Of a stretch of 64,000 bases of DNA, positions 53,827 through 64,000 are shown in pieces. How positions within the stretch are numbered: position 1 is the stretch's first letter; each line of letters opens with the position of its first letter. Position numbers and translations under genes: made by a program. This DNA comes from Diplolepis rosae (lineage: Eukaryota; Arthropoda; Insecta; Hymenoptera; Diplolepididae): assembly GCA_030998225.1 (NCBI GenBank), contig JAPYXD010000041.1, positions 248,001 to 312,000 of the forward strand, given 5' to 3'. Below the pieces are notes generated by a model. The model was not told where the DNA came from. It made no database searches and saw only the letters and a list, made by a program, of their open reading frames with translations.

Positions 53827-54000
53827 CGATACGCTTTTATCGAATCACGCACACGCTCGCTTACAATGCTGAGGCATAACACTTGAAAGTGTCTCATAAA
53901 GTGACTGCAAGAGTTATCCGAAGCTTGTCTGAGTACCAGTTTCATGACTAGAGTTTTTGAGCCTCACCTAAAGAAAAATAAATCAACCTTTTTTTATAAA

Positions 54001-54396
54001 TTATTCATAAAATATTTTAAAAATCAATATTGAATTAGTCCATTTTTGTAAAGCTTCTTTATTGTTTTTATCGCTTATATTATAAAATTTAGATTCTGTT
54101 ATTAAGCATTTTTCTAAATTTTCTTCTAAAAATATATATTTCGTGGAAAGTGTTTCCAAGACTCTAGCTGCTGCATTTTGTTTTGCTACTTTCTTTTGGG
54201 ACGCAGGTTCTCCAACACAAGCATACGTTAAATTATTTTTTAAAATTTCACAAGTTGCCTCGAATGGCGGTAGTTCTTGATGTATTCCAAGAGATTTTAC
54301 TGTGTATTCTGGTATTGAAAAATCATACTCAATACTTATTTCATTAAGTATTTGTACTGCGCTACCCTTTGTCAAATCTCTTTGTTGCATTGCCAT
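54001..54396 (-). CDS. dsRBD protein (3'-most gene)
   Basis: I start at the ATG at 54396 (MAMQQRDLTKGS, 131 residues). The longer frame begins with a TTG that lies inside an acceptor. Residues 11-84 are the most canonical dsRBD of the set: SAVQILNEISIEYDFSIPEY, then FEATCEI and YACVGEPASQKKVAKQNAAA with the basic KKVAK patch at 68-72 that contacts the RNA backbone. The C-terminal 45 residues are helical and unassigned. A stand-alone dsRBD of this size resembles viral RNAi suppressors that mask dsRNA (inference). Confidence 0.8.
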   Translation of the reverse strand: MAMQQRDLTKGSAVQILNEISIEYDFSIPEYTVKSLGIHQELPPFEATCEILKNNLTYACVGEPASQKKVAKQNAAARVLETLSTKYIFLEENLEKCLITESKFYNISDKNNKEALQKWTNSILIFKIFYE

Positions 54397-54405
54397 TGTC
54401 CTTAT

Positions 54406-54408
54406 CTG
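54406..54408 (-). promoter_or_regulatory. 3' splice acceptor for the last dsRBD gene
   Basis: ATAATTCTTTTGCAG on the - strand, 9 bases before the ATG. Confidence 0.55.
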
Positions 54409-54504
54409 CAAAAGAATTATCTATTTGAGTTGTTTGTGACTTAATTTGATATAAATGGAAATTAGTTATTATTATTGTTAATAATTATGTATATGGATTA
54501 TAAA

Positions 54505-54867
54505 TTATTCGTTTTCGGCGTTTGCTAACTCAAAGAGATATTCAGTGCAAAGAAAACATTGGTCTGCTCTGAAACGTATGAAAAAAATTTGCTCTTCGCA
54601 GACAGAACATTTTAATTCGTTAAGATCCGTGGTTACAATGTGGCGGTTAAGGAAAGGTACAGATATTTCTGATTCAAAAAAGGTAATTTTAAATCTGTAA
54701 CATTCTTTACATATGAATTTTTGATCTAAAGTATTCTGATATATTTCGTTTTCTGGAGAGTAACAACAAAAATGTTTCATAATTATTTGATCGATATACG
54801 GTTGGTAGTACTGTTCGTCGTTTTCTGGATTTTCGGCTTGAATGGATTCAAAATCATGCGGCAGCAT
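54505..54867 (-). CDS. Cys-rich accessory protein 2 (paralogue of protein 1)
   Basis: A 120-residue acidic protein. KFICKECYRF, LKCSVCEEQ and DQCFLCTEYLFE are three CxxC pairs arranged as in the neighbour at 54989, so one gene probably arose by duplication of the other. It starts 121 bases after that gene. TTTGTTATAG, a weak acceptor, is 4 bases before the ATG. There are no membrane signals. Function unknown. A zinc-binding adaptor or host-factor antagonist would fit, but nothing in the sequence shows it. Confidence 0.58.
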   Translation of the reverse strand: MLPHDFESIQAENPENDEQYYQPYIDQIIMKHFCCYSPENEIYQNTLDQKFICKECYRFKITFFESEISVPFLNRHIVTTDLNELKCSVCEEQIFFIRFRADQCFLCTEYLFELANAENE

Positions 54868-54988
54868 TTTTCTATAACAAATTCGTTATTGAGCTTTAAA
54901 ATACTAACTAGATCCTAACAGTGTTTTGCTTAAAGAGAATTTTCTAGACATATTTGAAATTTTATTTATGACTACAATTTATAATATT

Positions 54989-61113: not shown

Positions 61114-61395
61114 TTAGTCTATAATATCCAACATGTCAGCTATGACAATATGATCTGATAGGCGTAAACTGATAATCAAGTTTTTGTATGCGTCTGGTCC
61201 TCTTGTTTTGATTGTTGAAAAAATGTCTTTTATTGTATCTGGATTGTTTAGGTTTTTGCTCCATGTGGGAATATTACAGTCGTCTTGGTTAAAAATTCCA
61301 GTTTGAATTAAGTATGGCCAGAGAGCTACCATGTCGATAAAACAGGGAACTATTTCAATGAGATCATCTATGCGTTTGCGATGAATTTGATCCAT
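61114..61395 (-). CDS. CARD-only protein
   Basis: This 93-residue protein consists of one death-fold domain. IFSTIKTRGPDAYKNLIISL (residues 58-77) and SDHIVIADMLD (80-90) match the last helices of a caspase-recruitment domain (usual pattern: RGP-A-F, then L-x2-SGH-x2-LA-x2-L). PYLIQTGIFNQDD fits helices 2-3. CARDs join initiator caspases (insect Dronc) to the Apaf-1 homologue. A lone CARD could act as decoy or activator (inference). It starts 229 bases after integrase and 5 bases after an acceptor, TTATTCCAG. It might instead be another death-fold type, but the RGPDA signature favours CARD. Confidence 0.78.
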   Translation of the reverse strand: MDQIHRKRIDDLIEIVPCFIDMVALWPYLIQTGIFNQDDCNIPTWSKNLNNPDTIKDIFSTIKTRGPDAYKNLIISLRLSDHIVIADMLDIID

Positions 61396-61400
61396 TATAT

Positions 61401-61403
61401 CTG
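61401..61403 (-). promoter_or_regulatory. Putative 3' splice acceptor for the CARD gene
   Basis: ACACATTATTCCAG on the - strand, 5 bases before the ATG. Confidence 0.5.
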
Positions 61404-61624
61404 GAATAATGTGTTATGTCTAAATTTGTTGTATATATTTTTTATATAAAATATATATTTTTATATAAATTTTATATATGTATATTTTTATTTATTTTTT
61501 TATTTTTTATTTTTACCATTTATCGACAAAATAAAATTTCTATATTTTATTTAAATTGTATATGTATACATATTTTTTATAATTAAAGTAAAGATATTTT
61601 GTTTGTTATTTTTTTTTTATTTAT

Positions 61625-63268
61625 CTACTTTTGTACTTGTACGTGTGAGCGTTTTAGTCTATTAATGTGAACTACAGTAGGTTTGCCTTTATAGCTTATT
61701 TTGACATTCCCTTTTCCTAACACTTCCAATATTTCATAAGGCCCTGTATAATGGTTCTCTAGTTTTTTTATTTTACCTCCTTTTAATAAAAATACGTTGT
61801 TTCCAATTTTTACTTCTAAAGGATTTATTTTTTTATCATAATATATTTTCGATTTTTCTTTTGCTGAAATAAGATTCTCTCTTGCTTGTGTTCGCATTTC
61901 GTGTAGTTGAGTTACGAAATTAATTAAATAATCATCATACGTTTGTAATTTTTCTTGTTGTGATAAAGGTTCGCTGGAAGGTTCACGAGCTAATTTACCA
62001 AAAACCAATTCATAGGGTGTGCATTTTGTGCCTTCATGTACACTAGTATTATACGAGAACATTGCTAGTTCAAGCCAATCATCCCATTCTGAATTTTTTG
62101 CAACAAATTGTTTGAGATATTCTCCTAAAACATGATGTGAACGTTCTAATGATCCGTTTGATTGAGGATGAAAAGCTGTGGTACGAAATTGTTTAATTCT
62201 AAAACGTTTTGCCAATCTTTTTAATAAATTACTTTAAAAATCTCTGCCTTGGTCAGTAAGTACTCCTTTTGGTGATCCAAATATGCAAATAAATTTTTTC
62301 ACAAAAGCATCTGCTATTGTACTAGCTTGGTGATTAGGAAGAGGTATTGCTAAAGAATATTTGGTAAAATTGTCTTGTATCGTTAGAATATATAAGTTAC
62401 CAGATTTTGTTTCAGGTAGTGGACCAACAATGTCCATTGATATTTTTTCAAAAGCAGTAGTGGGTGTGTCTGTGATTACCATAGGATTTTTTGTTTTGAC
62501 TCTGATTAATTTTTTCAGTTGACATTGTAAACAGCCTTGAATATATTTTTGAATGTCTACTTTCATATTTTCCCAAAAAAATTTTTGGCGAATTCGACTA
62601 TAAGTTTTTGTGACGCCTTTATGGCCTCCTAATGCTGAAGAATGAGCTTCTTCGATTAAATGAGTTCGTTGTTCTTTTGTTGGATATTGCGTTATTCCAT
62701 TGCAAACTATAATTTTTGTAGTTGAATTTGAAAAAATTGAGTCAAAAATTGATTTCACTTCTTCCCAAAATATATGATTAATTCTAGAAGTTTTAGAAAT
62801 ACTAATTGACCGTAACTTCAGATTTTGAGATAATTCATGTAATGAGTATATTGATAATTTTATATTATTTAATGTTTCGGATAAATTGTCTTTAGTTTCT
62901 TCTTCAATTGGAAGTGCAAAATGGTAGTAGTTTCCTTTTTTAATCTCTTTTGCTATCCCTTTTTGTAAATTTTTAAATTTTGGTAAAATTTCACGTTTTT
63001 CTAAAGTTTTTGATCCGTTGTCGCGAGGAGTTCCATTTGTTGTAACAAAATATGCATAATTATCTTTTCGCATAGTTAATTGATCGCGACATTCAACTAA
63101 ATTTTTCCTTGTTATAATTTTTTCTGTTTGAGAGTTTATAGGAGGAGGTTCTGGGGGTGGGCGATTATAATTATCATGATCTTTATCGATTTTTTCACAA
63201 TTTATTTGAGATCTTCGGTTTAATCTCAAATTTTCTTCAAAATAAGGCTCTTCAAATTCTTCTTCCAA
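61625..63268 (-). pseudogene. Gypsy integrase with a single internal stop
   Basis: The integrase inserts element DNA into the host genome. In the first part (63268-62234) a His2-Cys2 zinc domain has H209, H216, C246 and C249. The core has catalytic Asp279 (ISMDIVGPLP) and Asp339 (LTDQGRDF). The second part (62215-61625) has the catalytic Glu in QSNGSLERSHHVL, then a GPY/F-type end (ENHYTGPYEILEVLGKG). Both parts are in the same frame. One TAA at 62234-62236 separates them, and counting it the Asp-Glu spacing is exactly 35. Only that codon breaks this domain. Confidence 0.93.
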
Positions 63269-63269
63269 T

Positions 63270-64000
63270 TTTTCTTCTTGGTTTTCTTCAAACTTCTCTT
63301 CAAAATTTTCCTCAAGATCGTCTCCAAAATGTTCTTCAAAATTCTGTTCAAAATCCTTTTGGAATTTTCGTCAAAATCTTCTTCAAAGTTATCTTCCAAA
63401 TTTTCTTCATAATTTTCTTCATTGTTTCCTTCGTGTGAGGTTTCAATGTCGTTGATTTCATCTTCTGAGGTTGAAAAATAATTCTCACTTTCTTCACTTT
63501 CTTCACTTTCAAATTCATTAATATTTTTTGGCTTCTTGGCATTCTTCTTCTTCTTTATGTTTTTTTGCTTGAGTTTGTTTCAAATAATCTAAATAATCAG
63601 GATCAGAGTCGGAATCTGATTCTACTTTCGTTCGGCTTCGCTTTTGCATATTTATTTCTGGTAATTCGTTTTCAAATATTTGTTTTCTTGGTCTACCTCT
63701 CTTTCTTTTTGTTTGGGAGGGGATATTTTTTAAATTTGTAAGTAGATTTTTTCTTGGCCTACCTCGTGATTTTTTCACAAGAGGTTTAGAAGAAAAATTT
63801 TCGTCTAATTTTTCTTGAGTTTCATTTCGATTCATATTTTTTGCTTTATCTTGCTCTATTCTCTTTTGAGCTCTTGTAGTAATAGTTTTCCATGATAAAT
63901 TTTCGTATTTTTTTGAAAACATTGGACTTAATAAAAATATTGTCATAAAAATAAGTCTTGAAGCCATATTTTTGAATAAATTTGTGTATTTTAATATATT
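63270..64000 (-). pseudogene. pol linker between RNase H and integrase, AT-hooks and acidic tract
   Basis: The - strand frame is open from the window edge to 63518 and has no start of its own. It carries TITTRAQKRIEQDKAK, typical of the linker after RNase H in Gypsy pol, then two AT-hook cores (SRGRPRK and KRGRPRK). A Ser/Asp run (ESDSDSDPDYLDYL) follows. After the stop at 63518 the sequence stays acidic in another frame to about 63350, and then in the original frame into the integrase. Two compensating single-base shifts, near 63525 and near 63352, thus interrupt the linker. AT-hooks bind AT-rich DNA, so a role in target choice is possible (inference). Confidence 0.7.

Follow-up and report, generated by a model that had tools for sequence, protein, structure and literature searches.

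Do the many open reading frames (ORFs) that follow a retrovirus-like integrase at one end of a Diplolepis rosae (Hymenoptera) contig belong to a single endogenous retrovirus, or did unrelated insertions bring them together? The question is raised by a stretch of 64,000 nucleotides (contig JAPYXD010000041.1 of assembly GCA_030998225.1, positions 248,001 to 312,000 of the forward strand), which was analysed at its full length and is called the window below; all coordinates are those of the window. Reading of ORFs and domains along the minus strand, from 64000 to 53990, gave a gypsy-type integrase and then eight further ORFs. We take this block to be the 3' part, at least 10 kb long, of an endogenous insect retrovirus of the Ty3/gypsy type with a complex-type genome, and we put the probability of this anatomy at about 0.7. 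An initial annotation of the same DNA had proposed an insect counterpart of the complex retroviruses. The part of that proposal that stands is the retrovirus-like element and its extensive accessory region, marked by a gene order that recurs in 7 of 160 relatives, a polypurine tract, an edge at a broken repeat and acceptor-like sites.

An array of eight ORFs behind a gypsy-type integrase

The eight ORFs lie on the minus strand with small gaps between them. The array begins with a CARD-like protein (61395-61114, 93 residues, PF00619) and chuENV, a chuvirus-type fusion glycoprotein (60969-58939, 676 residues, PF24664). These are followed by dsRBDx2, which carries two double-stranded RNA-binding domains (dsRBDs; 58927-58196, 243 residues, PF00035), and by dsRBD_b with one dsRBD and a CCHC knuckle (58158-57574, 194 residues, PF00035). 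ENV2, a baculovirus-F-like envelope protein, comes next (57515-55734, 593 residues, PF12259), and the array ends with the Cys-rich, putatively zinc-binding cys1 (55396-54989, 135 residues, weak RAG2_PHD match), the Cys-rich cys2, whose cysteine spacing is common with cys1 (54867-54505, 120 residues), and dsRBD_c with one dsRBD (54396-54001, 131 residues, PF00035). Between 61500 and 53990 there were eight ATG-initiated ORFs of at least 90 residues on the sense strand and none on the antisense strand, whereas 300 first-order Markov sequences gave a mean of 0.16 per strand, a maximum of two and a longest ORF of 132 residues. The eight-ORF array is beyond chance. The initial annotation had counted seven ORFs after the integrase, which has to be raised to eight; the protein types that it named (a CARD protein, two envelope-type glycoproteins, three dsRBD proteins and two Cys-rich proteins) were each recovered, in the same order and on the minus strand. 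The integrase with which it opened the block is also present, split over two ORFs by an in-frame stop.

This stop, at 62236-62234, separates a first ORF (63268-62234, minus strand), with the H2C2 zinc-binding domain (PF17921, E=2.7e-21) and the first part of the catalytic core (PF00665, E=6.6e-10), from a second one (62215-61625, minus strand), with the rest of the core and a C-terminal domain with a GPY motif (PF22938, E=4.1e-6). The H2C2 domain, core and GPY/F module of a gypsy-type integrase are thus all there despite the stop. The two parts were 32% and 27% identical to a GPY-bearing integrase elsewhere in the window (28358-29395; E=1.5e-18 and 1.4e-16). Comparison with a BEL/Pao integrase gave a weak match of 55 residues (E=0.005), the BEL/Pao copy being clipped by the window edge, so that the comparison covered the first half. 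Judged on the integrase alone, the reverse transcriptase (RT) being outside the window, the pol is not of the BEL/Pao type.

Upstream of the integrase, a pol linker (63269-64000, minus strand) contains RGRPRK twice and then acidic repeats; the two RGRPRK stretches (63640-63790, minus strand) we take to resemble AT-hooks. The reading frame of the linker switches between 63582 and 63520 and returns between 63373 and 63228. With one stop and two frame changes, the pol of this copy is broken. All three lesions lie in pol and none was noticed in the eight accessory genes, a distribution with P ~0.02 if lesions fell at random over 8955 bases, calculated post hoc; it gives a mild hint of constraint on the accessory genes, or is plain luck. 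The gap between the integrase and the CARD ORF measures 229 bases with 10% GC and contains an AT-rich palindrome at 61529-61604 (arms of 45 nt, 78%).

Gene order in other copies

Among 160 proteins fetched as relatives, seven span gene borders in the order seen in the window. In P0157 the end of chuENV runs into the start of dsRBDx2, and four proteins (P0153, P0155, P0156 and P0158) join dsRBDx2 to dsRBD_b. P0135 runs from dsRBDx2 through the start of dsRBD_b into ENV2, and P0160 passes from chuENV to ENV2 with a deletion in between. We infer that these seven are decayed copies read through by gene prediction. A match to at least two window genes was found in 23 of the 160 proteins, made up of the seven that link neighbours, 15 with overlapping dsRBD cross-matches, and P0050. 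The last of these, a chuENV relative, matched cys1 over 33 residues (E=1e-4 in a ten-protein database); we took this match as chance because P0050 is a glycoprotein that can be aligned with chuENV over almost its entire length, and the match falls within it.

Since the same order recurs across gene borders in 7 of the 160 relatives, the four middle genes (chuENV, dsRBDx2, dsRBD_b and ENV2), judged by this comparison, belong to one element and not to a pile of insertions. The outcome that the initial annotation had named as fatal to its proposal, frames belonging to several unrelated insertions, is thereby countered for these four, which travel together; the linkage of the other genes comes from this locus only. 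Consistent results were obtained with dsRBDx2 alone, for which 258 candidates yielded 38 homologous proteins of 48-99% identity. Their coverage of the query was at least 98% in four and at most 88% in the other 34, and they point to a multi-copy, mostly dead mobile family. Two near-identical relatives, P0121 (99%) and P0159 (97%), point to recent spread, although the P0121 record might come from this very locus in a different assembly. Searches of NCBIfam with five of the element's proteins returned chance-level matches only, and scans of viral contigs and of genome contigs found no relative. Within 53995-61625 a repeat search detected no repeat of at least 40 bases besides the palindrome, and blastn searches with pieces of the element detected none of them a second time in the window.

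The two envelope proteins

Both envelope-type glycoproteins that had been announced for this block were found, and they differ from what the comparison with errantiviruses would lead one to expect: the first is of the chuvirus type, and the second is F-type without an RxxR motif. chuENV matched PF24664 with E=1.5e-247 over profile positions 6-650 of 653. Its alignment over the full length of the profile, with the conserved columns present, identifies it as a chuvirus-type (Monjiviricetes) fusion glycoprotein, and its hydropathy shows a hydrophobic N-terminus and a C-terminal membrane anchor. There were 457 homologues. Of the 120 listed, 15 carried an organism name: 14 came from hymenopteran genomes and one from a hymenopteran chu-related RNA virus. 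In a tree of 41 rows (the window protein and 40 of the 120 listed homologues) chuENV grouped with P0001 and P0002 with support of 100/100, and the named proteins fell outside this group. P0001 and P0002 sit on contigs of 12 and 13 kb. A PDB search with the chuENV profile gave chance-level matches only. The tail of chuENV (58939-59140, minus strand) contains ASAP, and P0001 has PSAP at a like place; we assume that this may be a late-domain motif.

ENV2 matched Baculo_F (PF12259) with E=2e-17 in a targeted search and 4.7e-17 in a general Pfam scan, and hydropathy placed a membrane anchor at its C-terminus. The Baculo_F match flanks an unmatched stretch (profile 116 to 179), which we take to correspond to the region of baculovirus F proteins that holds the furin site and the fusion peptide; no profile match was obtained there, at the presumed position of the fusion peptide. 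A motif scan of the whole of ENV2 found no RxxR, the furin-site motif of the F-type env of an errantivirus, and a PDB search with ENV2 gave zero matches. Only two relatives of ENV2 were present among 3287 candidates, one of them 97% identical and the other being the joined protein P0160. Because ENV2 is without RxxR and is unmatched at the presumed place of these two features, the role of fusogen probably falls to chuENV, and ENV2 is likely to be an accessory protein of the surface, as is the uncleaved F remnant found in some baculoviruses.

The small accessory proteins

The match of the CARD-like protein to PF00619 (E=0.001) reached 19.5 bits, against a gathering cut-off of 23.9; in the PDB its top match was a designed repeat protein (E=0.00044), with the MAVS CARD behind (E=0.66). 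The dsRBDs of dsRBDx2 were recognised in two stretches (PF00035, E=1.7e-12), and the protein ends in a C-terminal C-x2-C. For dsRBD_b the match to PF00035 (E=0.0034) was below the gathering score; this protein also has a retroviral-type CCHC knuckle at residue 136 and a PPPLPPR stretch, and its weak PDB matches include a nucleocapsid (NC) protein (E=1.5). dsRBD_c, taken as the 136-residue frame 54411-54001, matched PF00035 with E=3.5e-7, has a KKxAK-type motif, and was closest to TARBP2 in the PDB (E=0.006). In the PDB the dsRBD proteins matched TARBP2 and Loquacious best, always weakly, with R2D2 as the best match for the second domain of dsRBDx2. On inspection, the lysines of the KKxAK motif are kept in dsRBD_c and partly in the first domain of dsRBDx2.

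No match above a gathering score was found for the two Cys-rich proteins. cys1 has 12 cysteines and a weak match to RAG2_PHD (E=0.0065), and cys2 has eight cysteines and PDB matches at chance level only. Six cysteines coincide between them, which was equalled in 7 of 20000 shuffles, and the two are probably paralogues. Going by domain identity, the accessory proteins may act against host defences, countering RNA interference (RNAi) and apoptosis; to these functions we give a little less than even odds.

Splice-acceptor-like sites

Upstream of the starts we noticed pyrimidine-rich stretches that end in CAG or TAG, 1 to 16 bases before the ATG. On the minus strand these acceptor-like sites end at 61401 for the CARD-like protein, 60972 for chuENV, 58172 for dsRBD_b, 57532 for ENV2, 55398 for cys1, 54872 for cys2 and 54406 for dsRBD_c. 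Six of the eight starts reached an acceptor score of 0.85, as did 8 of the 126 remaining ATGs on that strand; among control ATGs the counts were 11 of 151 for the antisense strand and 133 of 1863 for the remainder of the window. None of the seven sites, the weak cys2 site included, has another ATG between it and the ATG of its ORF, and a purine stands at -3 in 8/8 starts compared with 60/126 other ATGs. The dsRBDx2 ATG lies 11 bases past the chuENV stop, and this suggests that dsRBDx2 would be made by re-initiation behind chuENV. If most of the accessory genes had spliced mRNAs of their own, the sites would be as expected. The env of insect endogenous retroviruses (ERVs) comes from spliced RNA (PMC12992720), so a row of acceptors would be a natural extension of that arrangement.

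The 3' edge of the element

A polypurine tract, AAAAAAAGG, lies at 53995-53987 on the minus strand, five bases past the last stop codon. It is followed by a probable 3' long terminal repeat (LTR) of about 265 bp (53986-53722, minus strand), the outer edge of which coincides with a break in a host inverted-repeat element. The direct repeat to be sought left of 54000 has thus been delimited as a probable LTR, with no matching second copy inside the window; the LTR call and its terminal bases are provisional. The host element, which we label MITE-like (for miniature inverted-repeat transposable element), occupies 53568-53721 on the plus strand and is 79-84% identical to parts of a copy at 36821-37629 with inverted ends of about 60-70 bp. 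Since that related copy continues for another 400 bp beyond the break point, the retroelement seems to have inserted into a MITE-like element. An LTR end near 53588, suggested by a short inverted match, was rejected, as that stretch is the terminal repeat of the host MITE-like element.

Other content of the window

The window holds several other mobile elements. The pol of a BEL/Pao retroelement lies in pieces at 1-4208 on the minus strand, with Peptidase_A17, RT, integrase, DUF1759 and DUF1758 recognised by Pfam. Also on the minus strand are the GPY-bearing integrase at 28358-29395, a Retrotrans_gag protein at 43416-44654 and an RT ORF at 13927-15574. The C-terminus of the last looks like a GIY-YIG nuclease while Pfam gives RVT_1 only, and we presume that it may be a Penelope-like element. 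Pieces of mariner-type transposases (Transposase_1, HTH_48) were found at 6103-6567 on the plus strand and 50866-51264 on the minus strand. A tRNA at 7369-7440 (minus strand) scored 46 bits with Rfam and was not called by ARAGORN.

Comparison with known elements

The complex retroviruses are the lentiviruses, deltaretroviruses and spumaviruses, in which accessory ORFs lie behind pol and alternative 3' splice sites are used. The Diplolepis element resembles them in its row of accessory ORFs after pol, with acceptor-like sites that may serve as alternative 3' splice sites. It differs in that no homologous gene was recognised, in its gypsy-type integrase and in its two envelopes of different origin.

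With errantiviruses and other insect ERVs (gypsy, ZAM, idefix) the element has in common a gypsy-type integrase, an env as a further ORF (made from spliced RNA in those elements and perhaps here), and an F-type envelope related to baculovirus F, the type of env that errantiviruses carry (PMC12992720). Unlike errantiviruses, described with gag, pol and one env, it has eight ORFs after pol, a complete chuvirus-type glycoprotein and an F-like protein without RxxR. Because RT lies outside the window and the furin site of an F-type env was not found, we classify it on present sequence as a gypsy-type insect endogenous retrovirus and do not place it among the errantiviruses. Troyka, defined by an integrase without a GPF/Y motif and by the absence of an envelope gene (PMC12440569), was ruled out by the GPY motif and the envelope genes.

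A chuvirus glycoprotein captured by an LTR retroelement is known from Anakin of mosquitoes (PMC7642597). Anakin is a BEL/Pao element, whereas the integrase here is gypsy-type and seven further ORFs accompany the glycoprotein; the word "accessory" does not occur in the main text of the Anakin paper (PMC7642597). In Hymenoptera, endogenous viral elements (EVEs) with a homologous glycoprotein likewise stand beside gypsy sequences: they often adjoin fragmentary gypsy elements, and the survey that described them found no clear capture by gypsy (PMC10084718). In contrast to that survey, the gene order of several copies here argues that the glycoprotein moves with its neighbouring genes.

Accessory ORFs in insect Metaviridae are also known from the MDG1 group, in which sORF1 and sORF2 precede gag, the RNA is without evidence of splicing, and one of the two products is a cell-to-cell transmission factor (PMC11952523). 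Those sORFs differ from the ORFs described here in lying upstream of gag, and the passages of that paper do not liken them to dsRBD or CARD proteins (PMC11952523). LTR elements of bdelloid rotifers have similarly acquired additional genes, namely ORF3 genes for GDSL, DEDDy and dUTPase proteins and, in one lineage, a paramyxovirus-type env; unlike in the present element, the terms dsRBD, double-stranded RNA and CARD are absent from the main text of the rotifer paper (PMC5408684). A limited search of open-licence literature, covering titles and opening abstract lines, returned no retroelement described with dsRBD or CARD genes.

A model of expression and function

In the model that we favour, full-length RNA would serve for gag-pol and as the genome. 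An upstream donor would be spliced alternatively to the successive acceptors, so that most ORFs would each stand first on some mRNA, and ribosomes that have ended chuENV would re-initiate at dsRBDx2 immediately behind it. As the fusogen, chuENV would enable particles to move from cell to cell; ENV2, F-like and lacking a cleavage motif, would have an accessory role at the surface. The three dsRBD proteins might bind double-stranded RNA or sit on the partners of Dicer, and so blunt the small interfering RNA (siRNA) pathway. The CARD-like protein may be a decoy for the Dark/Dronc apoptosome, and cys1 and cys2 could be zinc-binding adaptors that arose by duplication. The widest form of the model would be a lineage of insect complex-type retroviruses, independent of those of vertebrates, with a captured RNA-virus fusogen, an uncleaved F-like second surface protein and a splice-controlled arsenal of dsRBD proteins, CARD and zinc adaptors against Dicer-2 and the apoptosome. 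We hold this form tentatively, as appreciably short of an even bet.

Weighing of the alternatives

Several points weigh against reading the block as one complex-type retrovirus. The window stops inside pol at 64000, and no gag, RT, RNase H, 5' LTR or splice donor was seen. The join between integrase and CARD was seen at this locus only, across the AT-rich gap with its palindrome, and CARD, cys1, cys2 and dsRBD_c were likewise met only here, no search having been aimed at them elsewhere. The 38 relatives of dsRBDx2 all come from one kind of source, ENA contigs, and their number counts proteins, not species. With regard to splicing, the acceptor score was devised after the sites had been noticed by eye, and its p ~2e-6 is indicative only; the cys2 site is weak (0.62, and 26 of 126 other ATGs reach 0.6), and the score-based scan gave no acceptor-like site for dsRBDx2. 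As to function, CARD and dsRBD_b are under the Pfam cut-offs, a designed protein heads the PDB matches of CARD, and by inspection the usual KKxAK lysines are missing in two of the four dsRBDs, the second of dsRBDx2 and that of dsRBD_b. The confinement of the lesions to pol would also fit selection by the host.

That last point leads to the possibility that the block is a host-kept gene cluster, in which the accessory genes of a decayed retroelement have been domesticated, for instance for antiviral defence, while pol degenerates. Eight open accessory ORFs beside a pol with a stop and two frame changes would suit such a history, but 34 of the 38 dsRBDx2 relatives cover at most 88% of the query and are scattered over numerous contigs, as in a mobile family in decay, and P0121 and P0159 suggest recent spread (with the reservation on P0121 given above), and we regard domestication as unlikely. 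We judge it very unlikely that an EVE of chuvirus origin, the remains of an errantivirus env and further genes came to lie beside a gypsy pol as a chance stack of unrelated insertions. The surrounding region is rich in other transposons, the very AT-rich gap between integrase and CARD contains a palindrome, and hymenopteran chuvirus EVEs often lie beside gypsy fragments with no clear capture (PMC10084718). Against this, the order of the four middle genes recurs in other copies, and the ORFs all read in one direction and are closely spaced; within 53995-61625 the palindrome was the only repeat of at least 40 bases reported, and a blastn search of the window for further copies of the pieces returned nothing.

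An integrated fragment of a large insect DNA virus (nudivirus-, ascovirus- or poxvirus-like), later invaded by a gypsy element, would account for an F-like envelope, dsRBD and Cys-rich genes, genes of a kind that such viruses carry. We find it hardly credible: no core DNA-virus gene was present among the ORFs submitted to Pfam, a polypurine tract follows directly after the last ORF, acceptor-like sites precede most ORFs, and of the 120 listed chuENV relatives those with names are the 14 hymenopteran-genome proteins and one chu-related RNA virus. A different kind of alternative leaves the anatomy largely as we read it and gives the small proteins a part in replication, with the dsRBD and CCHC proteins acting on RNA as chaperones or in packaging, and cys1 and cys2 controlling transcription or the export of RNA. 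The union of a dsRBD with a nucleocapsid-like CCHC knuckle in dsRBD_b speaks for it, as do the NC protein among the weak PDB matches and the precedent of regulators such as Tat and Rev in complex retroviruses. Three dsRBD genes and a CARD-like protein suit a target in host defence better, and we hold the replication role to be doubtful, though a serious contender.

Significance

Insect endogenous retroviruses have been described with one envelope gene, and a lentivirus-like accessory region was not met in the literature passages compared. If the reading as a complex-type insect retrovirus is true, the element would represent an independent origin of a complex retroviral genome, driven by RNAi and apoptosis and not by the restriction factors of vertebrates. 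It would also be a gypsy-type counterpart to the capture of a chuvirus glycoprotein by BEL/Pao elements, and its small proteins would be retroelement-encoded candidates, testable one by one, for suppression of the siRNA pathway.

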